Below, in pieces: positions 7,470 to 35,008 of a DNA stretch of 64,000 bases. The stretch is from the NCBI RefSeq assembly GCF_012027395.1, contig NZ_SNUJ01000001.1:744001-808000 (forward strand), given 5' to 3'. Both the position numbers and the translations under genes were made by a program. Each line of letters starts with the position of its first letter. The stretch's first letter is position 1. The DNA is from Thermococcus sp. LS1. GTDB taxonomy: Archaea > Methanobacteriota_B > Thermococci > Thermococcales > Thermococcaceae. The notes below the pieces were generated by a model, which saw nothing but the letters and a program-made list of their open reading frames with translations, was not told the origin of the DNA and made no database searches.

Positions 7470-7479
7470 GGTGGTCGGG

Positions 7480-8622
7480 ATGATAAGCCGCGAGGAGATT
7501 TTGGGAGTTCTTGAGAAGTACGAGCCGGAGAAGATAACGGTGGGTGTAATCGGCAGTCACTCAGCACTTGATATAGTGGACGGGGCCAAGGAAGAGGGCC
7601 TGCCAACGCTTGTCATTGCCCAGAGGGGCAGGCACAGGACTTACACGGAATACTTCAAGCTGAGGAAGACGAGAGACGGTTTAACCAAGGGGTTCATCGA
7701 TGAGGTTATAGTTCTCGAAAAGTTCGCCCAGGTGATTGATGTCCAGGATGAGCTCAGGAGGAGGAATGTTATCTTCGTCCCTAACCGCTCGTTCATTGTC
7801 TATACCGGAATAGACCGCGTCGAAAACGACTTCCTCGTTCCGCTCTTTGGTAGCAGAAACCTCCTCAGGAGTGAGGAGAGGAGCGAGGAAAAGAGCTACT
7901 ACTGGCTGCTCGAGAAGGCTGACCTGCCTTACCCAGAGCCTGTTAAGCCCGAAGAGATCGACGAAATCGGTTTAGTCATCGTCAAGCTTCCTCACGCCAA
8001 GAAGAGGCTTGAGCGTGGCTTCTTCACCGCTGCAAGCTACAAGGAGTTCCGCGAGAAGTCGGAGAGGCTGATTAAGCTTGGGGTAATCACGGAGGAAGAT
8101 TTGAGCAGGGCCAGAATCGAGCGCTACATAATCGGCCCCGTGTTCAACTTCGACTTCTTCTACTCGCCTATCGATGGGGAAATCGAGCTTTTGGGAATAG
8201 ACTGGCGCTTCGAGACGAGCTTAGATGGCCACGTTCGCCTGCCCGCTTCCCAGCAACTCACCCTGCCCGAGCACCAGTTTGAGCCAGAATACACTGTCTG
8301 CGGCCATGCTTCATCGACGCTCAGGGAGAGCCTGCTTGAGAAGGTCTTTGACATGGCCGAGAAGTACGTTGAAGCCACGAAGCGCTATTATTCCCCGGGA
8401 ATAATCGGACCCTTCACTCTCCAGACGGCCGTTGACAAGGACCTCAACTTCTACATTTACGACGTTGCCCCAAGAACCGGCGGCGGAACGAACATCCACA
8501 TGGCGATGGGCCATCCCTACGGCAACGCCCTATGGCGGAGACCGATGAGCACGGGTAGAAGGGTGGCGCTTGAGATCAAGCGCGCGATTGAGCTGGGCGA
8601 GCTTGAGAAGGTTGTTACATAA
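7480..8622 (+). CDS. purP: PurP-family protein 1 (divergent FAICAR synthetase paralogue)
   Basis: PurP formylates AICAR to FAICAR with formate and ATP in archaea that lack PurH. This 380-residue copy begins MISREEILGVLEKYEPEK, then the family motif GVIGSHSALDI, and ends with APRTGGGTNIHMAMGHPYG and MSTGRRVALEIKRAI. The place where the other copy (15074-16069) has the glycine-rich ATP loop HGARGGKGY here reads PHAKKRLERGFF, so nucleotide binding may differ. The ATG at 7480 follows GAGGTGGT; a GTG at 7471 is possible. It is in an operon with purD. The exact reaction of this copy is uncertain. Confidence 0.85.
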   Translation: MISREEILGVLEKYEPEKITVGVIGSHSALDIVDGAKEEGLPTLVIAQRGRHRTYTEYFKLRKTRDGLTKGFIDEVIVLEKFAQVIDVQDELRRRNVIFVPNRSFIVYTGIDRVENDFLVPLFGSRNLLRSEERSEEKSYYWLLEKADLPYPEPVKPEEIDEIGLVIVKLPHAKKRLERGFFTAASYKEFREKSERLIKLGVITEEDLSRARIERYIIGPVFNFDFFYSPIDGEIELLGIDWRFETSLDGHVRLPASQQLTLPEHQFEPEYTVCGHASSTLRESLLEKVFDMAEKYVEATKRYYSPGIIGPFTLQTAVDKDLNFYIYDVAPRTGGGTNIHMAMGHPYGNALWRRPMSTGRRVALEIKRAIELGELEKVVT

Positions 8623-8769: not shown

Positions 8770-8830
8770 AAAACTCAACAATAGTATGCTGAGATAACGA
8801 TGAGGCAAAGAAAAATTGGGGGTGGAGAAA

Positions 8831-8947
8831 GTGGAGAACAAACAAAAAACTAAGATTTTAGCTTTAGAAATTGATGAGGAGTTCGACGTTGAAATAAACA
8901 CAAAAGTTAATGGAGATGAGGGATACTGCAAAGATCTGATGTTTTGA
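8831..8947 (+). CDS. Candidate RiPP precursor peptide A
   Basis: A 38-codon frame with start GTG, preceded by the strong ribosome site GGGGGTGG six bases upstream (GTG at 8822 is an alternative). The C-terminal half contains VEINTKVNGDEGYC followed by KDLMF; the N-terminal half has the pattern KILALEIDEEF. A second peptide of the same type (10076-10201) lies on the other side of a radical SAM/SPASM gene and shares the spaced pattern L-x-L-[ED]-I-D and VE[IV]NTKxNG. Seen: two homologous short frames with good ribosome sites flanking a maturase. Inferred: this is a precursor with an N-terminal leader and a C-terminal core around NTKVNGDEGYC. One Cys only. Confidence 0.75.
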   Translation: MENKQKTKILALEIDEEFDVEINTKVNGDEGYCKDLMF

Positions 8948-8998
8948 TTTTTATTATATTTTTAATAATCTATTCGGAATAAACGTGGGGGGAGTTTG

Positions 8999-10045
8999 AT
9001 GGAGGCGAAGTTAGGTCTACGGAGTGTTGACCTCTCAATAACATCGTCATGTAATTTAAAATGTAAACATTGTTATCTGGAAGACTTGAAAAACGCAAAG
9101 ATTATATTGCCTTTTAGGAAAATTGAAGAAGTCCTCACAGATGCTAGGGATCTTGGCGCACATCACGTAACGTTGACTGGAGGAGAGCCTACCCTCCATC
9201 CAAAATTTCCAGAAATTCTTAATCTTGCTAACAAATTAGGGTTTAGGATAACAATATTTACCAATGCAACGACATTGAACGAAGACATAGTAAGTGTTTT
9301 GAAAGAGTGCAACATAAATGGAGTTCAAGTTAGTCTTGAAGGACTAAAAGAGATGCACGAAAAAATTAGAGGTAAAGGAACCTTTGAAAGGACCATATCT
9401 GGGATAAAACTCCTTGTAGATGCTGGTATTAGGGTTACTGTTAATACTCAACTAACAAAAGACATAATTGACAATATTCAAGAATATGCTTCATTTTTGA
9501 AGTCAATAGGCGTTTCAAAGCTTCTGTTAACTATCCCCTCCCTAGTTGGTGAAGCAAAAAAGAATAATGTTTGTTTTCCAGATGAAAAATTAGACGAGAT
9601 TAGGAGCATGCTAAAAATACACAAACTCAAAGATCAGTTTAAGATCGATTCTACAAACCCTGACTCAAATTATACTTGCTCAAATTATACTTGTACTGCA
9701 CTAATTCATCAGCTTGCCATAAATTTTGATGGCACAGTTTATCCGTGTCACTATTTTAGATCGACACACCACCACTCACTAGGAAATATTTATGTCGAAA
9801 GTTTGAGGGATATATACATATCCTGGATGAACGGGGATTCAGAACTTCTTCATTACCAGAAGTATGGAACCGCCAAGTGTAACGTGTGTAAATTCAAAGA
9901 AGTGTGTGAGCCATGTGCTGGCAGAATATATTCATTGTACAAAAACTTCAAGAATCCAGATTTGTTGTATTGTATGTTGCTTGGGAAAGAAAAAGTATTC
10001 CACGACGTACACATTAGTAGGTTAGTATGGGGCCGTATAGAATGA
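8999..10045 (+). CDS. Radical SAM/SPASM peptide-modifying enzyme (candidate RiPP maturase)
   Basis: 348 residues. Radical SAM cluster motif CNLKCKHC (Cys18, 22, 25), GGEPTLHP at about 61-68 and a C-terminal SPASM domain: Cys232, GTVYPC (250), then CNVCKFKEVCEPC (294, 297, 303, 306) and Cys325. This seven-Cys pattern holds auxiliary Fe-S clusters and is typical of enzymes that modify peptides or proteins (sactipeptide, PQQ, mycofactocin types). ATG at 8999 follows GTGGGGGGAG. Flanked on both sides by homologous short peptide genes and followed by an MFS transporter, so a peptide substrate is likely. Codons are rich in A/T, unlike the purine genes around it, which suggests horizontal gain. Alternative: a heme d1/PQQ-like cofactor enzyme; no partner genes support that. 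Confidence 0.9.
   Translation: MEAKLGLRSVDLSITSSCNLKCKHCYLEDLKNAKIILPFRKIEEVLTDARDLGAHHVTLTGGEPTLHPKFPEILNLANKLGFRITIFTNATTLNEDIVSVLKECNINGVQVSLEGLKEMHEKIRGKGTFERTISGIKLLVDAGIRVTVNTQLTKDIIDNIQEYASFLKSIGVSKLLLTIPSLVGEAKKNNVCFPDEKLDEIRSMLKIHKLKDQFKIDSTNPDSNYTCSNYTCTALIHQLAINFDGTVYPCHYFRSTHHHSLGNIYVESLRDIYISWMNGDSELLHYQKYGTAKCNVCKFKEVCEPCAGRIYSLYKNFKNPDLLYCMLLGKEKVFHDVHISRLVWGRIE
9664..9693 (+). repeat. 15-bp tandem duplication inside the SPASM domain
   Basis: CTCAAATTATACTTG occurs twice back to back without change, encoding SNYTC-SNYTC. It adds one extra Cys (227) just before the first expected SPASM cysteine (232). Identical copies suggest a recent in-frame duplication. Confidence 0.85.
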
Positions 10046-10075
10046 TATAGATCTCTTTACTACGAGGTGATTTAG

Positions 10076-10201
10076 TTGCTAGGACAGATAAAGAAGAAAA
10101 CAATCAAAGGGCTGGTTTTAGATATTGATGGACTAGAAGTTGAAGTGAATACAAAATGCAACGGAGGTGGGTGTGACGAGGACATCGACGAATGGATATA
10201 A
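10076..10201 (+). CDS. Candidate RiPP precursor peptide B
   Basis: A 41-codon frame with start TTG preceded by an excellent ribosome site GAGGTGAT (10064-10071) four bases upstream. The peptide has GLVLDIDGLEVEVNTK in the leader-like part and ends CNGGGCDEDIDEWI. Aligned with peptide A it shares KT near the N-terminus, L-x-L-[ED]-I-D, VE[IV]NTK and NG, with a Cys 10-12 residues after VE in both. It has two Cys (A has one), so the core may carry different links. It lies 30 bases after the radical SAM gene. Inferred role: second substrate of the same enzyme, perhaps a two-peptide system. Function of the mature product unknown. Confidence 0.8.
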   Translation: MLGQIKKKTIKGLVLDIDGLEVEVNTKCNGGGCDEDIDEWI

Positions 10202-10260
10202 ATCTTTATCTTTTTCCTCTTTGTCTCTGGGCAGGATATCAAGAAATGGGGGGAGAACTA

Positions 10261-11421
10261 GTGAAAAAGATTTCACCAGAAAAGGGATACTTACTCGTAT
10301 CCTCCTTAGGGGCGTGGATGACTCACTTAATGGGCCCGTATCTCACAATCTGGCTTAGGAGTTTGGGAATCTCATTTGCTCAAATCGGCTTTTTTCAGTC
10401 GGTTTCATCTTTCCTTACATTCATAACGGACTTCCCGACGGGAGGTCTGGCTGACAGGTACGGGCGAAGGCTTAACTACGCGGTTGGTATCTTGCTATTT
10501 GGAGTCTCTCTTATCATAATCGCCTGTTCGAGCAGCTTTTTTATAATAGCCCTGGCATTTGCTCTGGCTGGTATTGGAAGTGCCTTTATGAGCGGAACGC
10601 TCACTCCCTGGCTCTATGATACCATTAAAGGCGATAAAAAGAGGGCTCACATGGTCTTCAGTCGCATGAGGATTATAAACGGCATTTTAGGGACAGTAGC
10701 TGGCTTTGTTGCTGGAACCATCTCACGCTATGCCCTTAACCTTCCCATACTCCTGGCCGGCATCTGTGGGATAAGCGCTTCCCTGCTGGCACTCCTCTTC
10801 CTTGAGGAAAACTATGGCCACGGAAAGGCAAAACCTTACGGAGAAATCCTTAAGGATGGATTGAAACATATAGCCCGGGAAAGGACTCTCCACTATCTTC
10901 TCGTTGCGAGTTTCTTCCTGTCGTTCGCAGGTCGCTCGTTCTTCATGTTCTGGATGGTTCTTGCAAAGGAAGCCGGACTCAGGGAAAGCAGTATAGGTTA
11001 CGTTTATCCCCTGCTGATACTTTCAACGTCTTTCGGGGGATTCGTGTCTCTCAGGCTCTCTAGGTTCATGGACCACAGGAAAATTTTAGCAATCACAACG
11101 CCGTTGATGGGTCTTCTGATAATCGCAATGGGCATTGTTAAGGGCCTCTTATCCCTCCTCGCACTCATAACTCTCTTTGAGATAATAATAGCCATTAGAG
11201 CACCCGCCATGATAACATTCAGAAACGAGCTTATACCCTCTCCAATCCGCTCTACCGTTACATCCGCACTTAGCACGATAGGAGGTATGTTCTCGATGCT
11301 TGCCAACATTGCAGTTGGGCTCATTGCTGATATCTTTGGCCTTGGAGGCGCTTATGTTGTATCTGGAATCCTTGCGCTCTTTGCGAGCTTATTCTTAATG
11401 ATGGCGATCAAACATTCTTAA
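10261..11421 (+). CDS. MFS transporter, probable exporter of the modified peptides
   Basis: 386 residues with about twelve hydrophobic segments and the MFS loop motif GGLADRYGRR after helix 2, so a 12-helix major facilitator membrane protein. Start GTG at 10261 is preceded by GGGGGGAG, the same leader seen before the radical SAM gene; the in-frame ATG at 10192 would overlap the end of peptide B and has no ribosome site. Gap to peptide B is 59 bases on the same strand, which suggests cotranscription. Base composition is closer to the chromosome than that of the peptide and radical SAM genes. Substrate not shown by sequence; export or self-protection is inferred from position. Confidence 0.85.
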   Translation: MKKISPEKGYLLVSSLGAWMTHLMGPYLTIWLRSLGISFAQIGFFQSVSSFLTFITDFPTGGLADRYGRRLNYAVGILLFGVSLIIIACSSSFFIIALAFALAGIGSAFMSGTLTPWLYDTIKGDKKRAHMVFSRMRIINGILGTVAGFVAGTISRYALNLPILLAGICGISASLLALLFLEENYGHGKAKPYGEILKDGLKHIARERTLHYLLVASFFLSFAGRSFFMFWMVLAKEAGLRESSIGYVYPLLILSTSFGGFVSLRLSRFMDHRKILAITTPLMGLLIIAMGIVKGLLSLLALITLFEIIIAIRAPAMITFRNELIPSPIRSTVTSALSTIGGMFSMLANIAVGLIADIFGLGGAYVVSGILALFASLFLMMAIKHS

Positions 11422-11518
11422 AAAAATAAGTACTCCTTCTCATCTTTGCTTTTTTGTTCAGATGTATCAAGCTTCCTCTTCTTTGTCTTCCCTGAGACCG
11501 AGAGGAAGTTGGGTCTTC

Positions 11519-11944
11519 ATGAAGACGCTTCATACAGATGTCGTTCTCCTCATGGGGGACAAGGGGGTAATGAGAGTCGTCTCGGAGGATTTCAGGAGGA
11601 GGGGTGGAACCGTCGTCGGAATCCTGTCGTACTTGGAAGAGAGCAACGGGAGCAACTCCGTCGGGATAAAGATTGGCCTCGACCGGTCTGCAGGAGCGTC
11701 GTCCTGGTGAATTCAGCCGACGTCCTTGTTGTCCTCGGCGATGGTTTCGGGACTATGGTCAGACAATGATGACTTACAACCTCGGAATACCTGTGATCGT
11801 CCTCACGGGAACCGACTACATGAGCGATCTCCTCAGGGAGCTTGTTCCCGATGGGCACTTTGACCACAGGGAAAGGGTTAGGTAGTTTTCACAGAGAGCC
11901 CGGAGGATTCCGTAAGGCTCGCGCTGGAGCTGGCGCATTTTTGA
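11519..11944 (+). pseudogene. Decayed LOG/TIGR00725-like Rossmann nucleotide-binding protein
   Basis: Three reading frames carry successive pieces of one protein: GDKGVMRVVSEDFRRRGGTV then VVGIL (frame ending 11710), SVVLVNSADVLVVLGDGFGTM (frame ending 11769), MMTYNLGIPVIVLTGTDYMSD to 11885, and FTESPEDSVRLALELAHF ending at TGA 11942-11944. The order matches the GG-x-GGVM...GGTVVGI...S-x-D-VVVLGGG-x-GT...LGIPVIVL pattern of LOG/lysine-decarboxylase-like proteins. At least three frame changes and a missing N-terminal part show it is broken. No ribosome site is seen. Confidence 0.7.
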
Positions 11945-12000
11945 CACTTTTCTGTTAAAATAACCCTTAAAAACTCTAAATTTTTACACTTTTCTGGTAA
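11940..12000 (+). promoter_or_regulatory. purS operon promoter with operator motif and second copy
   Basis: A 25-base block TTTGACACTTTTCTG... (11940-11964) leads directly into the TATA box CCTTAAAAAC (11965-11974), the same spacing as at purC and purD. A second copy of its core, ACACTTTTCTGGTAA (11986-12000), lies 42 bases later around the expected transcription start and just before the ribosome site GGTGAT. Two sites, one upstream of TATA and one at the start, fit a repressor. Confidence 0.65.
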
Positions 12001-12010
12001 GGTGATGGCC

Positions 12011-12253
12011 ATGAAATGGAAAGTTAGGGTAACCGTCCGCCTTAAGGAGGGTCTCAACGACCCCGAGGGAAGGGTGATAGGAAAGGCCCTTAGAAACCTC
12101 GGCTACTCCGTTGGGCGCCTCAAAGTTCCGAAGTGCTTTGAGTTTGAGCTGGAGAGCGATAATCCAGAGAGGGAAGTTGAGGAGATGTGCAGGCGGCTGC
12201 TGGCTAATCCCGTCATACACACCTACGAGTACAGCATCGAAAAGGTGAGCTGA
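12011..12253 (+). CDS. purS: FGAM synthase subunit PurS
   Basis: Small structural subunit that links PurQ and PurL in FGAM synthase. 80 residues, beginning [20 protein letters not shown], the family hallmark (K-x-G-x-x-D-P-x-G), and ending [12 protein letters not shown] at 12011 follows GGTGAT by four bases; two earlier in-frame starts overlap that ribosome site. First gene of purS-purQ-purL-purP2. Confidence 0.95.
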
Positions 12254-18770: not shown

Positions 18771-21700
18771 TCACCTCTTTAGTAGGTCTTGTGCACCCGT
18801 CGGTCCCAGTATGGCGGTGGCGGTTTCATTGTCAATGAAGAAAGGCACCACGCTCAGGTCTCCTGTAAGAGCGCTGGTGCCGTATGAAATGCCCCAGACG
18901 CGGTAGCCTGTCTTTTTAGCTATCCTTCCAAAGTAGTAGTTGAGGAAGTAGTAGTCCACGCTACTTTGTCCCTCTTCTACGAGTATTCCAAAGTTGTTGA
19001 AGAGGTCAAAGAGCTTCTGGTCGTAGTCTGCGTTTGGAACCATAAAGCTGACCAGCCCGATGGGATAGTACTCATCGCCGTATTTTATTCCGAGTTCATC
19101 CTGCATCTTCTTTGCTAGCTGGAAGTAGCGGTCGTGATTGGTTACACTGTTTTCAAGGCGCTCAAAGAAGGACACTCCCTCGTATGTTCCAAAGTACCTC
19201 TGGCCGATTATACAGGATATCAATGGCTGGAGGTCGTAGGCGCGGGCGTCGTATGCTCCCTCGGTCTCTGGAGCGGATTCGATTCCGCTGCTTCCCACAT
19301 CTATGGGATCCACAGTGTAGTAGGGCATCCTGCCGATAACTATCCAGTCGAAGTATGCTGTGTTGAGAATGCTGCCCTGACTGTCTATGACTATCCCCAC
19401 TTTAACTGGAGAACTCACCTGCTTGTCCAGAGTGTAGGATACGCTCCTGGCGGTGCTATCGATGTCTTCAAAGCTGAGCTCTATGTTGGTAGCTCCTGGC
19501 CTGAACACAACCTGGTATCTGTGATAGTCGGATAGCACCGAGGTACTGCCGGATATTAAGCTGTTCCCCCAGTTCTCCAGAAGGGCAAGGGTGTCTCCTC
19601 CGTGATCCTCGTAGGATGGGTTGTCATCTATGAATTGAAGAGTGTCCTCTTCCATGATGGTCTGGGTACTTCCTGAGACCCTTGTTGTTGTATAGCTGAG
19701 GTATTCATCCGCCAGATACTTGCGGACAAAGATCCAGTCATACTCGCTAGGTCCGTTGGTCCACTGCTCGAGGCCGAGGGCGCGGTTGGCCAGGTTGTAT
19801 CCATTCCATCTGTTAAATGTGTAGAAGCTCTTCAGTTCCTTGTTTAGCCAGTCACTGAACTGGTATATCTTCGTCGAAGTGGGCGTGATGCGTACTTCAA
19901 TGTTGTTGAACGAGTTCATCGTGTACTCGGAGATTCCGTTGTCGTACCATCCGTACCATTCTCCGTTTAGTACATTGAAGTTCCAGAGGTATCCGAGCTG
20001 ATCTCCATAGTAGTTGATGTCCTCTATGCGCCCCCATCCAGAGGTGGGGTTTATGTTCCACATTATTCCAGGATTATCCACTAACTTTGCGCGGAAGTCT
20101 AGGATGTATGTGTTCGGGAATGTCTCAACTGTCCATATCCAGCTCTCAGCTGGCAGGTACAAGAGGCCATTGCTAACGCTGGGGTTTCCTGATGTGTGCC
20201 ACTTTGCGGTGTCCAGAGTGGTTCCGCTGAAATCGTCGAAGAACTCGAAGACTTTGCTTCCATCTCCCCTTGTGAGCGTGCCGGTGTTGTACCTGATGTA
20301 CACGGTAGTGGTGTAGTAGTAAATCCATCCTGTTATGCTCCATCCTCTACCAATGTAAGTGAGGTTGGCCTTTACCCATACCTGCGCCCCGTTTGAGTTC
20401 CAGTACTCTATCCAGAATGGCAGTGGATTCTGGAAGCTCTCGTCCGAATACACGGATATATTTGCCATATTTGTCGTTGGGTCGTAGTTTATGCCGCTTA
20501 TATTCGCGGCACTTAACCTTATCGGGATTTGGATGTTCGTGATGTCATATAACTGGGGTCCTTCGTAGTTTATCACGACCTTTAGGTAGTCTCCAGTCTG
20601 CTGGTACTCTGTGTAGTTAAACTCCAGCTCAACTCCACCGTCAAAGTCGAGACTGGTATATTCCGGTTTCATTCTGAACCTTACGAAGAATGTCCCGTCT
20701 ATCGCCTCTGCCGTCTGGAGGGCAAGCTTCTCTGTTCCCCCTGGAACTACGAGGTGACCGTTCCCATCGAGGTAAGCGTCCGCGAGATCGTTCCAAAGCA
20801 CGGGGTTGATGCTCGTTCCATCAAAGGTATCTATGAGCCAGAACAGGTACTCCTTATTGTAGCCGTCCGTTGCGTATGCGGGATCGTCTGTGAAGTAGAT
20901 GGTGTAATCTGTACCGCTTGCCTTGATCCACACCCAAACATATGTCGGGCCCCAGTACTCTATCCAGAACGGAACCTGAACGCAGGCTGTGTCGGACTTC
21001 TCGTATATCATCATCGAGGCTTCTTCGTCGGTGTGATAGATGTTGGGGAAGATACTAGTGGGAAGTTTAAGTAACACAAGGCTGCCATCGGGGAACTGGG
21101 GTATGGTGATGTTGACCCTCCATTTGTAGTTCAGACTGCACCAGTGAACTGATGATCCGATATCCCCAAAAACTAGGACTCCGATATCGTTGTCCTTGAA
21201 CACTAGCCTAGGTGAGAGAGGAACCCCCTTTAGGGTTGTGTTTACTATTACTGGCGCGGTAATTTTGTTAATATCCCCCGTGCGCAGCACATATCCGGTG
21301 GCGCCATCCCCGGGATAGTACTCACCGAAGAATATGAATCCCTCGCTCCAGGTTACGGAAGAATATTTGCCCAGAACGTGGTCGGTATCGCTGCTTCCGT
21401 TACCGTAAAGAACCTTTACGGGCCTTTCTATGAGCTCCGGGAAGGTGTACTCACACGGCTCTATCGAGCGGTAGTATCTTCCGTAGGTTAATGCTGAGAA
21501 GAGCGGGTCCTCGAGGTTTTCCAGTGTGATTATTGAGTACACGTATCCTTCCCTGGGTATCGGGCCGGTGTAAACAACCTTCCCTGCCGAATCGGATATG
21601 GTCACATCGTTTATCTTGGCCTTTATCACAATCCTGAATGAATCGAGGGGAGCAACGACCAGCTCAACATTCTGCCTCAGGAAATCAGCCCGCTCGGCAG

Positions 21701-22166
21701 AGCTCATGGCTCTTATCTGGGAGACGCTAATATTCGCTATCTTAAAGTCGTATCCCTGCTTCTGGAGCTCTGCTGACATGTTGCCGAGCCATCCAATGAT
21801 GGTCTGATCCTTCATGAGCTTATCAGAGTAGTTTTTCGCTATCTCATTGGCCTCTCCGAAAAGGACAAGGTCACGTATGGTCGCGTTCGCCATGTTGTCG
21901 GGGTTATTTGGGTCTAGAAAGTCACGCGTGTTTGCTATGTAGTCGACTATCGTGACTATAGCCCTCTTTCCGGATATCTCGAGAGTTCTCTGGAAGTCCA
22001 TCTCAACGTAGGATACTATCCTGTAAGTTTTTTCAATCTGTATCCTCTCGCTCTGGGAGATGATTATCTGTGATGATACGTCCTCATACGTCGCGAGAAG
22101 AAGCATAAGGGGGATTAGAAGAAGGATAACGGTGGAGTTAAGAACGAATGCGCGCCGCTTTCTCAT
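18771..22166 (-). CDS. Giant type IV pilin-like protein with two DUF2341 domains
   Basis: 1131 residues. The N-terminus MRKRRAFVLNSTVILLLIPLMLLL is a charged stretch followed by one long hydrophobic helix, the layout of an archaeal pilin-like anchor, though the usual Q residue after the cleavage site is missing. The ectodomain has two DUF2341-type beta modules (around residues 345-430 and 540-640; each with PFWIEYW...VWVKA) and further lectin-like beta sandwiches. Likely a surface tip or adhesin-like minor subunit. Its start overlaps the previous stop (TGATG), so it is cotranslated with the other pilin-like genes. Confidence 0.8.
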   Translation of the reverse strand: MRKRRAFVLNSTVILLLIPLMLLLATYEDVSSQIIISQSERIQIEKTYRIVSYVEMDFQRTLEISGKRAIVTIVDYIANTRDFLDPNNPDNMANATIRDLVLFGEANEIAKNYSDKLMKDQTIIGWLGNMSAELQKQGYDFKIANISVSQIRAMSSAERADFLRQNVELVVAPLDSFRIVIKAKINDVTISDSAGKVVYTGPIPREGYVYSIITLENLEDPLFSALTYGRYYRSIEPCEYTFPELIERPVKVLYGNGSSDTDHVLGKYSSVTWSEGFIFFGEYYPGDGATGYVLRTGDINKITAPVIVNTTLKGVPLSPRLVFKDNDIGVLVFGDIGSSVHWCSLNYKWRVNITIPQFPDGSLVLLKLPTSIFPNIYHTDEEASMMIYEKSDTACVQVPFWIEYWGPTYVWVWIKASGTDYTIYFTDDPAYATDGYNKEYLFWLIDTFDGTSINPVLWNDLADAYLDGNGHLVVPGGTEKLALQTAEAIDGTFFVRFRMKPEYTSLDFDGGVELEFNYTEYQQTGDYLKVVINYEGPQLYDITNIQIPIRLSAANISGINYDPTTNMANISVYSDESFQNPLPFWIEYWNSNGAQVWVKANLTYIGRGWSITGWIYYYTTTVYIRYNTGTLTRGDGSKVFEFFDDFSGTTLDTAKWHTSGNPSVSNGLLYLPAESWIWTVETFPNTYILDFRAKLVDNPGIMWNINPTSGWGRIEDINYYGDQLGYLWNFNVLNGEWYGWYDNGISEYTMNSFNNIEVRITPTSTKIYQFSDWLNKELKSFYTFNRWNGYNLANRALGLEQWTNGPSEYDWIFVRKYLADEYLSYTTTRVSGSTQTIMEEDTLQFIDDNPSYEDHGGDTLALLENWGNSLISGSTSVLSDYHRYQVVFRPGATNIELSFEDIDSTARSVSYTLDKQVSSPVKVGIVIDSQGSILNTAYFDWIVIGRMPYYTVDPIDVGSSGIESAPETEGAYDARAYDLQPLISCIIGQRYFGTYEGVSFFERLENSVTNHDRYFQLAKKMQDELGIKYGDEYYPIGLVSFMVPNADYDQKLFDLFNNFGILVEEGQSSVDYYFLNYYFGRIAKKTGYRVWGISYGTSALTGDLSVVPFFIDNETATAILGPTGAQDLLKR

Positions 22167-24265
22167 CAGTCTTCCCTCCAGATCCTTAGGGTTATTGTTA
22201 TCGGTTCAAAGAGACCCGGAATGTTGCCCATGGAAACGAAGACTATGTTGACAGTTGGGGGCAGCTTTATCAGTATCGGGTTAGTCTGGGTTCCATCGCC
22301 GCCGAGATTGCGGAAGAGCCTTATTATCGCGTCGTCAACGGCGTATCGCTCCATTCCATCGAGGAGATCCTGGGCGGTGACATCACAGTATGGGGCATCT
22401 CCTGCGGTAACGTAATGCGGAGAGCTGTCTCCGGTCCAGTAGTAGGTGATGTTGTATCCGGAACAGCCGCTCCTCAGGAGTTCTGGGAAGACGTTACCGT
22501 ATCCAGCAAAACCCTGAATAACGTAGGTTAGTTCTCCGTCTCCATTGCTTGGCTGGAGGTAGTATCCCTCCCCAAGGCTTATCGTTAGGGTGTTGATTCC
22601 AGGGGCTATTGCATTTGGGAGAGGGTGGTATTCATAGTCATAGCTGTTTCTTGTGTATCCAATCCTTGCGAGTGCGTATATGAACGGATTGGGGGGATGC
22701 TGGTAGATGTATGTGGGATCTATCAATGGATTGTCAATCCTGATAGACTGATCCGGCTGGCCGTAGTTCGTGTAGTATAGCCACGGAAACTGGAACTTTA
22801 CCCAGAGGGGGGTAACACCCTGGGGAACATCGAAGCTGATTGTTATATACCTGCTCCAATCCAGATTCGGAAGCGTTATCGGTTCGGTTATGTCGATGGT
22901 GTAAGAAGTGAGCAGCACGCCGGGTGTGTAGTCCGCATAAACAAAGGATTCATTGCCTATGAGGTGGATGTTTGGAACGTACTCAGTATTCTCATCGCCT
23001 GCCCTGACTATTATCGTGGTATATCTGCTTGAGATGTGGGTATAGTTGTACCCAGCGTTTTCAAGGGCAGTTGCTATGGTGGTGTTGTCCCAGTAGCACA
23101 CCTTCGTCATCGTGGTGGCGTTATACTGGCACGGTGCGCTTAGAGGTATAGGTATTTCTTCGTTGAACATGAACGATAATGAGACTGGAGTCTGAGCGGA
23201 AACGTTTCCAACGGCGATCTGAATACTAAGGGCATTAAGTTTTCCAGGGATGAAGAGATATTTCCACGCTGTTATTCCGTGTTTGGCCGTAACGTCCTCG
23301 AAATAGAACCTGTCGTTAAATTTAAGCGTGGAGGGAATTGATGTGGTATACTTTATCTTAATGTATTGGGCACCGTCTTCACCGCCATCGTATCCGCTCT
23401 TGTAGACCCTTACTTCGAATACGTTGGTCTCCCCGGGTTTGAAGTTCTCTATTAACTCCAGTCCTCCGGATGGGTCAGTATCCACGAGCTTTTCGTTGTT
23501 GTCAACGTACCCTGACCATATGAGTTGGCCATTAAGATAGACCTCATAGTTAGAACCGACCCATGCCGGCTCAAGGAACCAAGTTATTTCCTGAATTTCG
23601 GCATCCTTTGGAATAGCATCCGCGGGAATTATGTATTTTATTATGACGGCGTCATCTTGGTTATCCGTTCTTGCATATATGTATCCTCCCCTGGCTGTGT
23701 AGGTGTTTTCCTTGCTTCCTAGCTTGTTGAGAAACGCCCTCGCCATGTATCCCCTTGGGGTCTGGTTGTAGGCGTAGCCGCTCAGTATGAGTGTTGCAGG
23801 GGTCACGTCCGAGGCCGTTGAATAGTTGGCTCCAGTCTTTCTTAGATATGGGCTTGTGTAGTTGTTTATCATGAGTTCATAGTTGTAGTCCGTTAAGGTG
23901 TTGTTGAGGACGTAGCCCATTATTACCTCCGCTTTGTGCTTGAGATTTGCCTCCGGAAAAACCGGGGCGGTTGCCCAGTACGTTGCCACAATGTCAATCG
24001 GGGACATATCTGGAGTTACAAGCGTTGTGTTGAGAGTCCCATCGCTTATCCACTCTTCGAGCTTCTCGGGTGGAACGAGCTCCCTAAGGGGAAGGGTTCT
24101 GAACATGGTCAGGGTATCTTCTGCTACATATTTGGATTGGGAGCGCATATATGTGGAGTAAACTTGGGCACTTGTGTTAATCTGGCTTATACTAACTACA
24201 AACATTGTTACGAGCAGGAGCGCAAGTATTGCGTCAAGTGTGAATATAAAGCCCCGTCTCTTCAT
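22166..24265 (-). CDS. Large type IV pilin-like protein
   Basis: 699 residues. N-terminus MKRRGFIFTLDAILALLLVT gives a basic head, a Gly at the expected prepilin cleavage site and a long hydrophobic helix. The ectodomain is rich in Asn-x-Ser/Thr and Tyr, as in S-layer-associated glycoproteins, with many beta-rich stretches (EVYLNGQLIWSGYVDN, NVFEVRVYKSGYDGG). Function unknown; predicted minor pilin or surface protein. Start overlaps the end of the previous gene (ATGA). Confidence 0.8.
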   Translation of the reverse strand: MKRRGFIFTLDAILALLLVTMFVVSISQINTSAQVYSTYMRSQSKYVAEDTLTMFRTLPLRELVPPEKLEEWISDGTLNTTLVTPDMSPIDIVATYWATAPVFPEANLKHKAEVIMGYVLNNTLTDYNYELMINNYTSPYLRKTGANYSTASDVTPATLILSGYAYNQTPRGYMARAFLNKLGSKENTYTARGGYIYARTDNQDDAVIIKYIIPADAIPKDAEIQEITWFLEPAWVGSNYEVYLNGQLIWSGYVDNNEKLVDTDPSGGLELIENFKPGETNVFEVRVYKSGYDGGEDGAQYIKIKYTTSIPSTLKFNDRFYFEDVTAKHGITAWKYLFIPGKLNALSIQIAVGNVSAQTPVSLSFMFNEEIPIPLSAPCQYNATTMTKVCYWDNTTIATALENAGYNYTHISSRYTTIIVRAGDENTEYVPNIHLIGNESFVYADYTPGVLLTSYTIDITEPITLPNLDWSRYITISFDVPQGVTPLWVKFQFPWLYYTNYGQPDQSIRIDNPLIDPTYIYQHPPNPFIYALARIGYTRNSYDYEYHPLPNAIAPGINTLTISLGEGYYLQPSNGDGELTYVIQGFAGYGNVFPELLRSGCSGYNITYYWTGDSSPHYVTAGDAPYCDVTAQDLLDGMERYAVDDAIIRLFRNLGGDGTQTNPILIKLPPTVNIVFVSMGNIPGLFEPITITLRIWRED

Positions 24266-25752
24266 GAGTCATCCCACACCCACAGCTTTAACACAGCGAG
24301 GCTCGCCTGAGGCTTCATTATTGTCTTGATTCCATTCAGATCCGTTATCTCAACTTGGTCAATGTCTCTCATCTCGTACACCCAAACGTAGATGTCTAGG
24401 CTCTCGCCCTGTTTTATCTGGGTAAGGAACTCCTTCCACTGGACTATCACGTAATCCGGACTTCCGGAGGTGTAGGACTTAACGTATGTCTTCCCATTGA
24501 TGGTCTGATTGATAATGAGCTGTATGTTGGAATCGACAGAGGCTTTGTAGGCGGCCAAGACAGAATAGCCCGAGATGTTCGTTCCCCTCATCCATGCCAC
24601 CATGACAATGTAGCCGGTATCGTTGAACCCTACCTTGAGGGCCATATAGTCGGGAATCGGGGTGTAAATACTTCCAACATAGAGCTCTTTTGGTAGACCA
24701 TTTGGTGTCACTGTGTAGCTTCTGTTGTATATCATCTTGGTCATCGGAACCCTTCTCTCGGTGTAGGTTATCCACGGAGAACGGTTCATTGAGGTCCGGA
24801 TTATGCTGGAATCTTCCACAAAGGTGCCGTTTATCATCGTCATGTTATAGTCAGCGTCAACGACCTTGGTAGCATAGATGTACCTTATGGTAAGGTTGGT
24901 TGAGTAAACTCCACCCTGCTGTCCCCACCAGATAACACCGTCCCACGTGGTGGAAACTTCCAGGCCCTCTCTGTGGTAGGGTAGCCATAGCTGGTACCCA
25001 CCATTCTCGAGGGGGGTCCATCCAATTGGAAGCCATCCTGAATCAACCCGCACGTATACAGTTGAACCCGCCGGGATCGTGACTATTTCTTTTGGTCCTC
25101 CAGCTGCCTGCCCTGCTGGTATAGAGTACACCACATTGACATCCTCGGTAATCTTGAAGGTGAATATCTCTCCGGCACTCATGTTCATAACGTACTGGAT
25201 ATTCCCAACACCGGGGAAGTCCTCTCTCAGGGGTGAAGCCCACGGGACCACTATTGAGAGTCCATATGCGTAGCCAGGTCTGGTAGTGAGTGAGAAATGC
25301 CTCCCCTCAGTCAGCTCGACTGAACCTTCTATTTGTGGGGGTATAACGGTAACGTTGCCGATAATCTCAACCCTAGTCAGGTAAAATCCAAGCGTGAAAT
25401 CCTTACCCATGCTCAAATTGGCAAGGGCACTCCTAATCGTTGGGTCATTATCATTAACAGCCTTGTTCAAGGCCTCTATTTTTAGATAGTCAATGGTATT
25501 GGGATATCTGCTGTTCTCGAGGCCTAGATAAACAAGGTTTGATGGGTCGCTCTCCCAGTTGCCTGGAGTTCCGGGGTTTTTCACTACGATATCGAGCATG
25601 TTGTCTCCGATATTGGCCCTTTCGTACCAGCCCAGCATGGTAGTTATATCATCTTTTAGCGCACTGGATGTGCTGATTATCATTCCCAGTATGAGTATAA
25701 CTATGACCAATGAGAGCATCGCGTCAAAGGAAAGCAGCTGACCTCGCCTCAT
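24262..25752 (-). CDS. Type IV pilin-like protein
   Basis: 496 residues. N-terminus MRRGQLLSFDAMLSLVIVIL shows a class III-like signal (RRG|Q) and a hydrophobic helix, then an extracellular domain rich in N-glycosylation sites (NMSAGEIF, NRSYTV, NISGYS, NQTINGK). The D in SFDAML takes the place of the conserved Glu5 of pilins. Between two other pilin-like genes with four-base overlaps on both sides. No recognised domain in the ectodomain. Confidence 0.8.
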   Translation of the reverse strand: MRRGQLLSFDAMLSLVIVILILGMIISTSSALKDDITTMLGWYERANIGDNMLDIVVKNPGTPGNWESDPSNLVYLGLENSRYPNTIDYLKIEALNKAVNDNDPTIRSALANLSMGKDFTLGFYLTRVEIIGNVTVIPPQIEGSVELTEGRHFSLTTRPGYAYGLSIVVPWASPLREDFPGVGNIQYVMNMSAGEIFTFKITEDVNVVYSIPAGQAAGGPKEIVTIPAGSTVYVRVDSGWLPIGWTPLENGGYQLWLPYHREGLEVSTTWDGVIWWGQQGGVYSTNLTIRYIYATKVVDADYNMTMINGTFVEDSSIIRTSMNRSPWITYTERRVPMTKMIYNRSYTVTPNGLPKELYVGSIYTPIPDYMALKVGFNDTGYIVMVAWMRGTNISGYSVLAAYKASVDSNIQLIINQTINGKTYVKSYTSGSPDYVIVQWKEFLTQIKQGESLDIYVWVYEMRDIDQVEITDLNGIKTIMKPQASLAVLKLWVWDDS

Positions 25753-26222
25753 TTTCTCACCACATCCACGTTTATCTCAACCTCTTCTCCACCAAAATAC
25801 AGCTTGCCTCCGCTCAGCTGGACGTTTGTGTTTGAGGCAAGGTCATTGACTATGTACTGCTTTATGTTGGCCTCCAGGGTTGCTTCGGGGACGGCACTCC
25901 CCGAGTACGTTATGATGATATTGACCTGTATCTTGCTATCCAGCTCGTTCATGCTAATGGAGGTGAGCTGGAATGTGTGGTAAGTGTAGTTGTCGGCCTT
26001 TATTATTTCGTTCAGGGGAGCGTAGCCAGCTTCGTTGATCATAACCCCGGTGTTTATGTATGCACAGGCACTGGATGCAGAGTTCCTTACGTAAACAACC
26101 AGTGAGGTGTCCCTGTTCTCATTCAGGTAGGGAGGTACTATTATCAGAATTCCCGTGAGGATTATGGCGACTATGAAGAGGGTCTCAATCGCGGTTTGAG
26201 CCCTACGACGAGATACCGACAT
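25749..26222 (-). CDS. Small type IV pilin-like protein
   Basis: 157 residues. MSVSRRRAQTAIETLFIVAIIL: cleavage after RRRA, then Q and a Glu at position 5 of the mature chain (QTAIE), the best match here to the class III archaeal pilin rule. A single helix precedes a small extracellular domain with repeated beta strands (KIQVNIIITYSG...LYFGGEEVEINVDV). Starts inside the end of the previous gene (20-base overlap). Probably a structural pilin subunit. Confidence 0.82.
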   Translation of the reverse strand: MSVSRRRAQTAIETLFIVAIILTGILIIVPPYLNENRDTSLVVYVRNSASSACAYINTGVMINEAGYAPLNEIIKADNYTYHTFQLTSISMNELDSKIQVNIIITYSGSAVPEATLEANIKQYIVNDLASNTNVQLSGGKLYFGGEEVEINVDVVRK

Positions 26223-26646
26223 ACAGCCTTCCCTCCGCCTCGTTGTACGTTGCCACTATCTGGAATTCTCTATCCGCCTCTGTGAGGGTGACTGAACTCT
26301 CCCTGTAAATTGGCACGGGACTGTTCTGGATGACGAGGTACTTTCTCCCAGCTATTGTGGCGTTTATCATGATGGTATCGTTGGATGGTACGAGTGTAAT
26401 CGTAACTTTGTCGCCTGAATCGAGGTTCATGGGAAGTTCTTTCCTCACACTGAAGCCATCTCCTGCGGCGTAAACTTTTACAACCGAATCTCTCATGTCT
26501 ATTGAGAATGCTTTGAGCTTTGCAGCCTCATTGAAGGTCTCGGCGTGGGTTGTCTCGCTACTGGCAATATAAACTAGGTTAACCATTGTTAAGGTTATCA
26601 GAGTAACCGCAAAGAGGAAGTCAATGCTTATCTGTCCCCTCTTCAT
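26203..26646 (-). CDS. Small type IV pilin-like protein
   Basis: 147 residues. MKRGQISIDFLFAVTLITLTM: KRG|QISID fits the QxSxEF-type class III signal peptide with Asp in place of Glu. One membrane helix, then a beta-rich ectodomain ending GRLYVGISS. Two bases after the upstream pilin gene. Confidence 0.83.
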   Translation of the reverse strand: MKRGQISIDFLFAVTLITLTMVNLVYIASSETTHAETFNEAAKLKAFSIDMRDSVVKVYAAGDGFSVRKELPMNLDSGDKVTITLVPSNDTIMINATIAGRKYLVIQNSPVPIYRESSVTLTEADREFQIVATYNEAEGRLYVGISS

Positions 26647-26648
26647 GT

Positions 26649-27284
26649 TCAGTCACCAGGATTAATGTTTATTCTCAGCTCGCCCTTCGTGGAATCAAAC
26701 GTCCAGCTGTTGGGATTGTCGGGGTTCCACTCGACGACTATCTTCAGGGTCGCGGGGAGGTCATCGGGGTCTATCTCCAGGCCGTAAATGGTATCCGCGC
26801 CAATAGTGATGCTTCCCAGGGGGGACCATATGGACGGGTTATCGTACAGCACCGCCTGATACATCGACCTGCTCCAGAATATGTTCTTATCTCCACCACT
26901 AAGAACGAGGTTAAAGCCCGTGCCAGTGACAGTGACGTAAGTGCCGTTGCCGTCACTGCTGTAGTTGCCGTAGGTTATGAACACCTTTGGATTCTCCACG
27001 TTCAGACTCTTCTCAAGCATTCCGGAGTCCTTCAGGTAAGTTAGCTTGACGTAGGTGGTGGACTTGGCACCGGGTCCCTGGGCATAGACTTGGCTTATCG
27101 TGTTGGAAACGGCATTGGCGAGGTTCTTCTCCTCAAGACTTACCTGAATACGGAGAGTTTCGGTTGAAGTTGAACCTTCTCGGAAAGTAACGTTGTTCAC
27201 AGAGTAAAGTAACAGTATAAGCATTATACCGAATATGAGCATAAACTCCAGTGAAACCTGGCCACGCCTCGCTTTTTTCATCAT
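26649..27284 (-). CDS. Type IV pilin-like protein with class III signal peptide
   Basis: 211 residues. MMKKARRGQVSLEFMLIFGI is a textbook archaeal class III signal: RRG|QVSLEF, processed by an EppA/FlaK-type peptidase. Ectodomain with NYSSDGNGTYVTVTGTGFNL and a C-terminal KIVVEWNPDNP strand pattern. First of six successive pilin-like genes. Either of two adjacent ATG codons may be the start. No ATPase or TadC-like platform gene lies in this window, so the secretion motor must be elsewhere. Confidence 0.87.
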   Translation of the reverse strand: MMKKARRGQVSLEFMLIFGIMLILLLYSVNNVTFREGSTSTETLRIQVSLEEKNLANAVSNTISQVYAQGPGAKSTTYVKLTYLKDSGMLEKSLNVENPKVFITYGNYSSDGNGTYVTVTGTGFNLVLSGGDKNIFWSRSMYQAVLYDNPSIWSPLGSITIGADTIYGLEIDPDDLPATLKIVVEWNPDNPNSWTFDSTKGELRININPGD

Positions 27285-27323
27285 ACATTCTCCCCTCAGT
27301 ATTGATATGGTGTGAACATCTAT

Positions 27324-27953
27324 TTAATGGTTACTCTCGGATTTTTCAGCTTTTACTACCGCAAAAAGGCCCGTTCCGACTTTTCTGGTTGCAACTCCGA
27401 AATAATCGCCGCTGAATATCTTGAACTTGTACCTTTCGGGGGGCAAGGAATGCTTCTCCACAAGTTCAGTCAGCTCATCGATGAAGAACTGGGTGAGCTC
27501 GTAGTAAATCAGGTCGAGCTTCTCTTTAGTGTAGTCCCTGATGAAGAGAATCACGGGCAGCATCGCGAGGCCGAGGATGAAGTAGGGCTGTTTTAGCAGC
27601 AGGGAGGCCGCTGCCGTGGCTGCAATGAGGCCTCCTACGACGGCGTATGCTGCTTTTTCCTTTTTCTTTATCCCCTTGATTTCCTTCACCTTTTCTTCCC
27701 AGATGTCCAGAAGCGCCGGATTGTAGAAATCAAAGGCGGTGTGACGCTTTCCCTTGGCTATTCTTTCTCTTATCAGGTCGTCCCAGTCATCCCTGTAATA
27801 GATGACCTCTCCATGGAGCTTGGCCCTTTCGGCATCGAGAGAGGAGATTATCCTGATTATGTCCTCGGCGCTTTCGTGGGCTATGTGTGCGTAAACCTCC
27901 TTTTCGTCGAGCTCCAGCGCGACCTCGACAGAGTCCTTTATTGGCTCGGTCAT
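27324..27953 (-). CDS. Membrane protein encoded between CetZ and pilin genes
   Basis: 209 residues. N-terminal polar domain (acidic; SAEDIIRIISSLDAERAKLHG), a hydrophobic hairpin at about 100-137 (AAYAVVGGLIAATAAASLLL...FILGLAMLPVILFI) and a cytoplasmic C-terminal domain. Family not recognised. Start overlaps the CetZ stop (ATGA), so its product may bring CetZ or the pilins to the membrane; that is inference from position. Confidence 0.8.
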   Translation of the reverse strand: MTEPIKDSVEVALELDEKEVYAHIAHESAEDIIRIISSLDAERAKLHGEVIYYRDDWDDLIRERIAKGKRHTAFDFYNPALLDIWEEKVKEIKGIKKKEKAAYAVVGGLIAATAAASLLLKQPYFILGLAMLPVILFIRDYTKEKLDLIYYELTQFFIDELTELVEKHSLPPERYKFKIFSGDYFGVATRKVGTGLFAVVKAEKSESNH

Positions 27954-29041
27954 TCCCCATCACCAGGATATATGTCGTCGAAGTCGGGCAGACCGCTCAG
28001 CAACTCTTTCTTCTTAGCTTCAGCCTTTTCCTTGGCTTTTATGAACGACTGAGCGTAGCGCTTGGCAGTTAGTACTATCTCCTCGATGCTCTTGCTCTCG
28101 TAGATGCCGCTCAGCAGGGTTACAACTTCAACCTCTCTCTCGCGCGGATCTGGATAGAAGCCGCGGAATATCTGCTTGCCTCGTATCTTGTTGGTGAGGT
28201 AATCGAGGGCCTCGAATATCTCCGTAGCTTTGAGCAGCTCCGGCGGTCCGTGAATAGCAACGAGGCCGTAGAGCGCTGACTCTATGTTTGCATCCAGATA
28301 AAGCCCCTCGTTCTCAAAGGACTTCATTATGAGCCTTGAGAGGCTCTTGACCTTGTTAGCGTCAGCTTTCGCATAACCAATGGTGGCAAAGCTTCCAAAG
28401 GCCTTGAGAACGAACTTCAGATCGCTCGCGTCAAGCGTCTGCTCGCCGGGAACGTCTACAAGTGCCAGCAGGGATGCTATGCGCTCGACTATCGTGTAGT
28501 TTATCCTCTCGTAGGCCTTTGTTATGTCGTCACCGCTCTCTTTCAGCTTGTTGTTGTCGATGGCTATGATGGAGTCGGCTATCTTGGAGAGCTTGTCTAT
28601 AGTTATGGCCGCGTTTATGGTCGGCCTTATGCCCTCTTCTTTGAGTGGAAGTGCTCCAATAGCCACGACGAGCGAATCGGGGTACTCCTCCTTCAGGGCC
28701 TCTGCCAGAACTGGTGTTCCTCCGGCTCCAGTTCCACCGCCGAAGCCAAAAGTTAAGAAGAATACGTCTATGTCTTCGTAGCCGATTATCGATCCTATCT
28801 TACGCATTACCATTGGTAAATCGCGCTTCATTGCCTCTCTGCCAAGTAGTGGGTTGGCGTTGACACCCTTTCCACCGGTGAGGCCCTCTCCTATGAGTAT
28901 TCTTCTCTCGTGAGGAATGTGTTTTAGGTAATCCAGGTCTCCCCGGGAGGTGTTTATCGCCAGTGCCTCAAAATCAACTAGGGCGAAGAGGTCGGCTATC
29001 TTCGTTCCGCACTGGCCGACCCCTATGATTAGAGCCCTCAC
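27950..29041 (-). CDS. cetZ: CetZ-type tubulin/FtsZ superfamily GTPase
   Basis: 363 residues. N-terminal GTPase domain: MRALIIGVGQCGTKIADLF (nucleotide loop), the tubulin signature GGGTGAGG at 101-108, NAAITIDKL and the N-rich IAIDNNKL ribose/guanine region. The second domain is tubulin/FtsZ-like with a charged C-terminal tail (KAEAKKKELLSG...DDIYPGDGE). CetZ proteins affect cell shape and motility in haloarchaea; here the gene leads an operon of membrane and pilin-like proteins. Overlaps the next gene by four bases. Confidence 0.92.
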   Translation of the reverse strand: MRALIIGVGQCGTKIADLFALVDFEALAINTSRGDLDYLKHIPHERRILIGEGLTGGKGVNANPLLGREAMKRDLPMVMRKIGSIIGYEDIDVFFLTFGFGGGTGAGGTPVLAEALKEEYPDSLVVAIGALPLKEEGIRPTINAAITIDKLSKIADSIIAIDNNKLKESGDDITKAYERINYTIVERIASLLALVDVPGEQTLDASDLKFVLKAFGSFATIGYAKADANKVKSLSRLIMKSFENEGLYLDANIESALYGLVAIHGPPELLKATEIFEALDYLTNKIRGKQIFRGFYPDPREREVEVVTLLSGIYESKSIEEIVLTAKRYAQSFIKAKEKAEAKKKELLSGLPDFDDIYPGDGE

Positions 29042-29048
29042 CTTTTAA

Positions 29049-33208: not shown

Positions 33209-33367
33209 GTCATCTCTGACACCATAAGGCATTTTTGAAAATATTTCGAACATTCCGAGAAGATTCTTGTATTTTGTATACTTGCCAAAATATTACTGTA
33301 CATAAACATCACATGACAGGATTTTCTTACATTTGATGGCGATATGCCATATGTAATCTACGAAAGA

Positions 33368-33379
33368 CTTAAGTATAAA
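33368..33379 (+). promoter_or_regulatory. TATA box of the first subtilisin gene
   Basis: CTTAAGTATAAA, about 57 bases before the chosen ATG, very like ATTTAAGTATAT before the second gene. Predicted start of transcription near 33400, leaving a short leader with GGGGTG. Confidence 0.55.
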
Positions 33380-33424
33380 TGCCTTCATGTATGGGTGCAT
33401 AAACATGTACTGGGGTGTTGGCAG

Positions 33425-34705
33425 ATGGACAGGAAAGTGGCTATAAGTGGTTTGATGGCTCTGCTGCTTCTGGCGGCAATCTTTGCAGTCCCCGCTGTCG
33501 CTGAGAAGCCAGAGACCGTCAGGGTTGTCGCACATATAGACAGGGGTCACTTCAAGGCCGATGCCGTCAAGGGAGTCGGGGGTAAAATCGTCTACGAGTT
33601 CAAGCTGATTGATGCCGTTGTCATTGATATCCCGGCTAATGCCGTTGGCAAGCTGGCTAAGCTCGACGGTGTTACCAAGGTTGAGTACGACCACATGGCT
33701 CAGGTTTACAGGGGTGGTCCGCCGTGGCTCATCAGCGAACCGACCCAGCCGGCCCAGACGATTCCGTGGGGAATTGAGCGTGTCATGGCTCCCGAGACCT
33801 GGAGCATAACCGACGGCTCTAGCAATGGTGTTATTGAAGTCGCAGTCCTCGACACCGGTGCCGACTGGGACCACCCAGACATAGCTGCCAACATCGTCTG
33901 GGGAGTTAGCACCATAGGAGGAGTCGTCAGTACTGACCCTGCCGACTGGTATGATGGAAACGGCCACGGAACCCACGTCATTGGAACCATTGCTGCCCTC
34001 AACAACGACATCGGAGTCGTCGGCGTTGCCCCGAACGTTGAGATCTACGCCATCAAGGTTCTTGACGACAGGGGAAGCGGTGCTTACACGGACATCGCCA
34101 TCGGTATCGAGCAGGCCCTCCTTGGTCCGGACGGAGTGCTTGACGCTGACGGTGATGGAATAGTCGTTGGTGACCCGGATGACGACGCTGCCGAGGTCAT
34201 AAGCATGTCCCTCGGTGGCCCGAGCGACGATGAGTATCTCCACGATATGATTATCCAGGCCTACAACTACGGCGTTGTCATAGTTGCCGCCAGCGGTAAC
34301 GAGGCCGCCGACCAGCCGAGCTACCCGGCCATCTACCCAGAGGTCATCGCCGTTGGTGCCACCGACTCAACCGACGCCATAGCCTACTTCAGCAACCTCC
34401 AGCCTGAGGTCAGCGCTCCAGGTGTTGACATCCTCAGCACCTATCCAGACGACACCTACGAGACCCTCAGCGGAACCTCGATGGCCACCCCGCACGTCAG
34501 CGGTGTTGTCGCTCTCATCCAGGCTGCCTACTACAACAAGTACGGCAAGGTTCTCCCGGTTGGAACCTTTGAGGACATGGACACCAACACCGTTAGGGGA
34601 ATCCTCCACGTTACGGCCGACGACCTCGGTGACCCCGGCTGGGACATCTACTACGGTTATGGAATAGTGAGGGCTGACCTGGCTGTCCAGGCGGCTCTTG
34701 GCTGA
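33425..34705 (+). CDS. Subtilisin-like serine protease 1 (Tk-subtilisin family)
   Basis: Secreted protease of 426 residues: signal peptide (MDRKVAISGLMALLLLAAIF...AVA), propeptide ending near 110 (YEFKLIDAVVIDIPANAVGK and [13 protein letters not shown] as in Tk-subtilisin), then the S8 catalytic domain. Triad: Asp143 (VLDTG), His181 (NGHGTHV), Ser352 (SGTSMATPH); oxyanion Asn in ASGNE. The calcium loop DADGDG[13 protein letters not shown] is the insertion needed for folding in this family. ATG at 33425 follows GGGGTG; the frame is open further upstream but lacks a signal there. Confidence 0.95.
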   Translation: MDRKVAISGLMALLLLAAIFAVPAVAEKPETVRVVAHIDRGHFKADAVKGVGGKIVYEFKLIDAVVIDIPANAVGKLAKLDGVTKVEYDHMAQVYRGGPPWLISEPTQPAQTIPWGIERVMAPETWSITDGSSNGVIEVAVLDTGADWDHPDIAANIVWGVSTIGGVVSTDPADWYDGNGHGTHVIGTIAALNNDIGVVGVAPNVEIYAIKVLDDRGSGAYTDIAIGIEQALLGPDGVLDADGDGIVVGDPDDDAAEVISMSLGGPSDDEYLHDMIIQAYNYGVVIVAASGNEAADQPSYPAIYPEVIAVGATDSTDAIAYFSNLQPEVSAPGVDILSTYPDDTYETLSGTSMATPHVSGVVALIQAAYYNKYGKVLPVGTFEDMDTNTVRGILHVTADDLGDPGWDIYYGYGIVRADLAVQAALG

Positions 34706-34961: not shown

Positions 34962-35008
34962 CATTTTATTAGGTATTGCTGAACTAATATGTGCTGAGGT
35001 GGTACTGT

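Follow-up and report, generated by a model that had tools for sequence, protein, structure and literature searches.

Why should a single radical SAM/SPASM gene of Thermococcus sp. LS1 be framed by two very small reading frames whose products resemble each other, and what could these peptides be for? The question arises in a 64,000-nucleotide stretch of DNA (the window) which is part of the purine biosynthesis region of this archaeon, in an assembly of 2.0 Mb and 25 contigs. The gene order is purP, A, radical SAM/SPASM, B, MFS, a broken SLOG gene and purS (Table 1), and A and B stand on opposite sides of the enzyme gene, no more than 55 bp from it. We consider it probable that this is a horizontally exchanged RiPP cassette in which a single radical SAM/SPASM maturase acts on A and B as its precursors and the MFS protein serves as exporter. 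Most likely, to judge from the sequence, A and B supply the material from which a chemically modified peptide, so far undescribed, is made. Elsewhere in the window, a minus-strand run of large genes (18771-31268) includes a DUF2341 protein, a CetZ-type tubulin homologue and a squalene-hopene-cyclase/TED-like repeat protein; at E 1e-5, Pfam recognises nothing in two large proteins of the run.

Table 1. Positions of the cassette, its flanks and a second peptide family (window coordinates unless a locus is named)
Feature	Size	Position	Strand	Remarks
purP		7471-8622	+	left flank, outside the cassette; DUF1297/DUF1246 and NCBIfam
Exchanged cassette (A, radical SAM, B, MFS, 5' part of broken SLOG)		8797-11582 (approximate ends)	+	bounded by a step in DNA identity
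Peptide A	38 aa	8831-8947	+	GTG 8831 to stop 8947; MENKQKTKILALEIDEEFDVEINTKVNGDEGYCKDLMF; candidate RiPP precursor; amino-acid-identical in G054 and G070
Radical SAM/SPASM enzyme	348 aa	8999-10045	+	PF04055 (E 6e-31), PF13186
Peptide B	41 aa	10076-10201	+	TTG 10076 to stop 10201; MLGQIKKKTIKGLVLDIDGLEVEVNTKCNGGGCDEDIDEWI; candidate RiPP precursor; amino-acid-identical in G054 and G070
MFS transporter	386 aa	10261-11421	+	PF07690 (E 3e-29); GTG 10261; candidate exporter
SLOG/TIGR00725 gene remnant		11462-11947	+	frameshifted, matches in three frames; marks the purP/purS insertion context
purS		12002-12253	+	right flank, outside the cassette; from position and conservation in the purine operon
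[LV]PF[VI]C...C..C peptides (tandem)		L009 915-1055, 991-1209	+	beside a radical SAM gene
[LV]PF[VI]C...C..C peptide		L010 2792-2914	-	beside a radical SAM gene
[LV]PF[VI]C...C..C peptide		L013 2916-3038	-	beside a radical SAM gene

The original prediction had singled out the two frames for their rare starts (GTG and TTG), for a VE[IV]NTKxNG motif with LxL[ED]ID and KT before it, and for one cysteine in A and two in B; all of this is present in the window. Altogether 17 residues are common to A and B, across KxKT..K.L.L[DE]ID..VE[IV]NTKxNG..GxC, and the local BLOSUM62 score of the pair is 55. The shuffle comparison that had been proposed as a check bears out the likeness, since 20,000 residue shuffles gave at most 49, and shuffling the dinucleotides of both intergenic regions 1,000 times gave at most 42. 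Among the 426 small ORFs of the window, A and B are mutual best matches, the next best scores being 30 and 38. In the codon alignment, the codons differ at 8 of the 17 identical residues and nucleotide identity stands at no more than 57%, so that the likeness is one of protein sequence. Thus, A and B look like old paralogues kept alike as proteins, not like a recent DNA copy.

Two other in-frame starts are available to A (GTG 8822 and TTG 8816); of the three, GTG 8831 is preceded by the best purine stretch (GGGGGTGGAGAAA), which is not decisive. A strong ribosome site, GAGGTGAT, lies 4 nt 5' of the TTG of peptide B, and the MFS gene has GGGGGGAG at its GTG, while a longer MFS frame from ATG 10192 would overlap B. 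T-rich/pyrimidine runs occur directly 3' of the A and B stop codons (8948-8975 and 10202-10230). These could be candidate partial archaeal terminators, in which case the precursor transcript would exceed that of the enzyme and transporter. Because they are short and begin with GTG or TTG, A and B are easily overlooked in annotation, and neither matched a family in Pfam, NCBIfam or the defence-system and phage libraries. The rare starts and the lack of a database family are what one would expect if A and B were chance ORFs and the cassette merely a radical SAM gene with a transporter, but the shuffle tests, the ribosome sites, the amino-acid identity in three genomes (with only two differences, both silent) and the position of the left cassette end just 5' of A make this scarcely credible.

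Near-identical copies of A and B exist beyond the window in two genomes of the same genus (G054 and G070). Indeed, the whole four-gene block is found in three of 94 Thermococcaceae genomes, each time between purP and a broken SLOG gene. Orthologues of the enzyme among these 94 are confined to G054 and G070 (97-99% protein identity); the next matches in the family are at most 46% identical, and the best of these is partial. The DNA of the cassette is 97-99% identical to that of G054 and G070. Outside it, identity falls to 79-81% in purP, to 76-78% over the 174 bp that precede the cassette and to 74-79% in purS. This contrast (97-99% inside, 74-81% outside) indicates that A, the enzyme, B and the transporter were exchanged between species as one unit, and since the left edge falls about 35 bp 5' of A, this peptide is part of the block. 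Assembly chimerism is an unlikely source of the step, as the single-contig G070 shows the same step as the draft G054. Silent sites in the cassette are as conserved as the rest, which points to recent exchange and not to selection. The synonymous-site argument of the original prediction, which asked for conserved residues with low constraint at silent sites, is borne out only weakly: two silent and no amino-acid changes separate the three copies of A and B, but the whole block has barely diverged.

The insert is AT-rich, with a GC content of 33-40% in A, the enzyme gene and B and of 47% in the MFS gene, versus 54-57% in purP and purL. Other genomes have purP followed directly by purS (for example L149 and L150), or a SLOG gene between the two (L154, L155, L159 and L166, the L159 copy being intact). 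The SLOG gene is broken in all three cassette genomes, and in G054 and G070 it is also partly deleted. The position and the SLOG remnant being common to the three genomes, the sequences suggest a single insertion, later passed between species by homologous recombination. In G054, another cluster lies next to purL (L052, G054:C7:16000-25766), where ABC transporter genes, the gene of a TPR protein and that of a 31-aa peptide, MEPEKKEEIVEEVEILCWKCLLNWQQQDVTA, accompany two radical SAM/SPASM genes. Cassettes of this sort may have a hot spot at the purine locus.

The enzyme carries the CX3CX2C radical SAM motif (C18/C22/C25) and seven SPASM cysteines (C232, C250, C294, C297, C303, C306 and C325), in the spacing CX12GX4C-X43-CX2CX5CX2C-X18-C. 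A 15-bp tandem duplication at 9664-9678, absent from G054 and G070, adds five residues and one cysteine (SNYTCSNYTC) just before the first SPASM cysteine. The best structural match of the AF2 model (72 aligned sequences, pLDDT 81.3, pTM 0.84) is CteB (5why; VIA Z 28.9, rmsd 2.5 over 306 residues), followed by SkfB (Z 26.7), SuiB (26.5), ChlB (26.4) and anSME (26.4) and, lower, by PqqE (22.5) and EpeE (20.4). The best of these relatives are peptide maturases, CteB being a ranthipeptide/sactipeptide maturase, and the top two are entries on thioether formation. As in CteB (5why, 5wgg) and SkfB (6efn), a radical SAM barrel is joined to a full SPASM domain, and the matches span residues 5-337 and 1-318, respectively. 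Yet identity to these two enzymes is 20-25%, their precursors are unrelated to A and B, and the cassette is archaeal, has two paralogous precursors and encodes an enzyme without an N-terminal RRE. Among NCBIfam models, StsB, PapB and SkfB come near the top, all under their cut-offs. The best, the sactipeptide maturase StsB (NF045574), gives 132.9 bits over residues 6-304 against a cut-off of 625, and PapB (NF047865) gives 98.2 bits against 340, which places the enzyme in neither family. The StsB alignment begins at StsB position 94, the N-terminal part being missing in the cassette enzyme.

An RRE on or beside the maturase is usual, not universal, in sactipeptide and ranthipeptide systems, and many sactisynthases have one. 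The cassette enzyme has none: the protein begins at the barrel and aligns from CteB residue 91, so that its model starts where the N-terminal domain of CteB, the RRE, ends. Nor does the cassette hold an RRE gene, there being no room between the four genes and no PqqD domain by Pfam. Other features of thioether systems are present, namely the radical SAM and seven-cysteine SPASM motifs and cysteines in the putative core (one in A, two in B). Short candidate precursor genes beside the radical SAM/SPASM gene, a feature of radical SAM RiPP clusters in general, are there too. It is plausible that the cassette works like a sactipeptide or ranthipeptide system; we do not call its product a sactipeptide, because the RRE is absent and the thioether is putative.

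Among the matches listed, the best radical SAM relatives in genome contigs are 25-36% identical, and in the tree the three cassette enzymes form a long branch of their own (100/100), to which no sister group is joined with support. The top-scoring relative outside Thermococcaceae among these matches (L185; 32% identity, E 1e-42) belongs to a cluster in which it is accompanied by an MFS gene, by a Cys peptide of 26 aa (MEKYVKPEIKMSYIVGSVHTLCVNVK, ribosome site GAGGTGA) and by a PqqD-like RRE. Homologues of the cassette MFS protein adjoin radical SAM genes in two loci of other Thermococcaceae (L016 and L029), and short Cys peptides with ribosome sites occur at several further Thermococcaceae radical SAM loci. 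The gene order of the cassette thus repeats a theme, though A and B themselves are orphans. Other loci were set aside: L060 (34% identity) has a larger enzyme and no matching peptides, while radical SAM matches in phages and plasmids show about 23-31% identity, and neither of the two plasmid loci inspected has a similar context. From the defence-system and phage libraries came nothing but generic matches to radical SAM or MFS proteins. In three Thermococcaceae genomes, each from a different genus (G015, G074 and G004), radical SAM genes adjoin a second peptide family, unrelated to A and B. Its members have the common motif [LV]PF[VI]C...C..C and are likely another RiPP family.

A profile of A and B searched against the 94 Thermococcaceae genomes found the three cassettes only; the weaker matches inspected (E 0.06-0.6) lay inside other frames or were without the motif. 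No relatives of the peptides were found in viral contigs, in plasmids or in 545 genomes sampled from two further archaeal phyla, a sample that held no positive control, and none comparable near about 110 other radical SAM relatives among the matches listed. With no relative found in the genomes, viral contigs and plasmids searched, the peptide family appears to be an orphan.

In the A/B alignment, a positively charged start is followed by a middle segment (KILALEIDEEFDVEINTK in A, KGLVLDIDGLEVEVNTK in B), whose alternation suggests something hairpin-like, and by a Gly-Cys tail, NGDEGYC in A and NGGGC in B (CNGGGC with the extra cysteine), in which one cysteine is aligned. The predicted fold of A is uninformative (pLDDT 57). 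Both the leader-like part and NG..GxC are common to A and B, the other copies being near-identical only. That the longest common part resembles an ordered hairpin-type segment and not a variable core would suit real small proteins that are not substrates, such as regulators, chaperone-like partners or inhibitors of the enzyme. But paralogues with Gly-Cys tails on both sides of a maturase-like enzyme would be atypical for regulators, and small Cys peptides adjoin the enzyme at several other radical SAM loci of the family; we find such roles quite improbable. The earlier suggestion that the pair might be two substrates of one enzyme agrees with all the context that could be tested (flanking position, structural relatives, transfer as a unit); the other role suggested, that of a two-component peptide, is hypothetical. 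The paired peptides, the enzyme class, the gene order and the unit transfer are read from the sequence, and the enzyme fold and the cluster motifs from model and pattern.

For the substrate role of A and B, the bond type, the trimming, the export and the biological role, we infer the following scheme. The common K-rich and L.L[DE]ID..VE[IV]NTK part would be the recognition (leader) segment, bound directly by the RRE-less enzyme, and the NG..GxC tail would be the core. With SAM and its auxiliary [4Fe-4S] clusters, the enzyme would abstract hydrogen from a core residue, which would then be joined to the conserved cysteine in a thioether of the sactipeptide or ranthipeptide type. A host protease would trim the product and the MFS protein would export it. 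The cassette contains neither a protease nor an immunity gene. Two tandem subtilisin-family (S8) protease genes lie in the window, unlinked to it (33344-34705 and 34991-36289); host proteases of the S8 type could trim the peptides. The product is probably a competition or signalling peptide.

Modification probably takes place through the GxC cysteine common to A and B. This shared motif and the structural neighbours incline us towards a Cys thioether, which as a bond type is a guess; A, with its single cysteine, could carry one such thioether at most. The same cassette logic might serve a different chemistry: a C-C crosslink of the cyclophane type, epimerisation, another radical modification, or a small-molecule scaffold, as peptides provide for PQQ and mycofactocin. 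The presence of ChlB, anSME, PqqE and EpeE among the structural neighbours speaks for this, and the common Asn-Gly and Lys could offer sites other than cysteine; against it, the GxC cysteine is the sole chemically distinctive residue common to both tails, and the two best structures concern thioether formation. We therefore hold a different chemistry to be possible, if somewhat doubtful.

Among the closest known systems is thuricin CD, in which TrnA and TrnB are the precursors and TrnC and TrnD the enzymes (PMC12093266). Both clusters encode two precursors, and the SPASM spacing of TrnC, Cx11Gx4Cx36Cx2Cx5Cx2Cx14C (PMC12093266), is close to that of the cassette enzyme. In contrast, thuricin CD uses two radical SAM enzymes with RRE domains where the cassette has one enzyme without, and each Trn peptide carries three thioethers, whereas peptide A has one cysteine. 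ChlB (9gm3), named as a cyclophane synthase in a title cited in PMC12636437, matches the enzyme model from its own first residue and was solved with a leader peptide; on these grounds it may serve as a precedent for an enzyme that binds its leader with no RRE. It is 19% identical to the cassette enzyme, and A and B have no aromatic core motif in common. The boldest version of the scheme, in which an RRE-less archaeal enzyme acts on two paralogous precursors by a new NG..GxC crosslinking to give a two-peptide product spread by recombination at the purine locus, is unlikely as a whole.

There is precedent for radical SAM RiPPs with small precursors, for two-precursor clusters and for leader-bound enzymes without an RRE. 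A literature search that covered few subscription journals found no description of radical SAM RiPPs in Thermococcales, and the peptide family, the hyperthermophile archaeal host and the between-species exchange appear to be undescribed in the literature searched. Small, complete-looking and recently exchanged, the cassette offers a practical system for the study of modified peptides in hyperthermophilic archaea, one suited to asking how a maturase that lacks an RRE finds its substrate, and what roles such peptides play in their communities.
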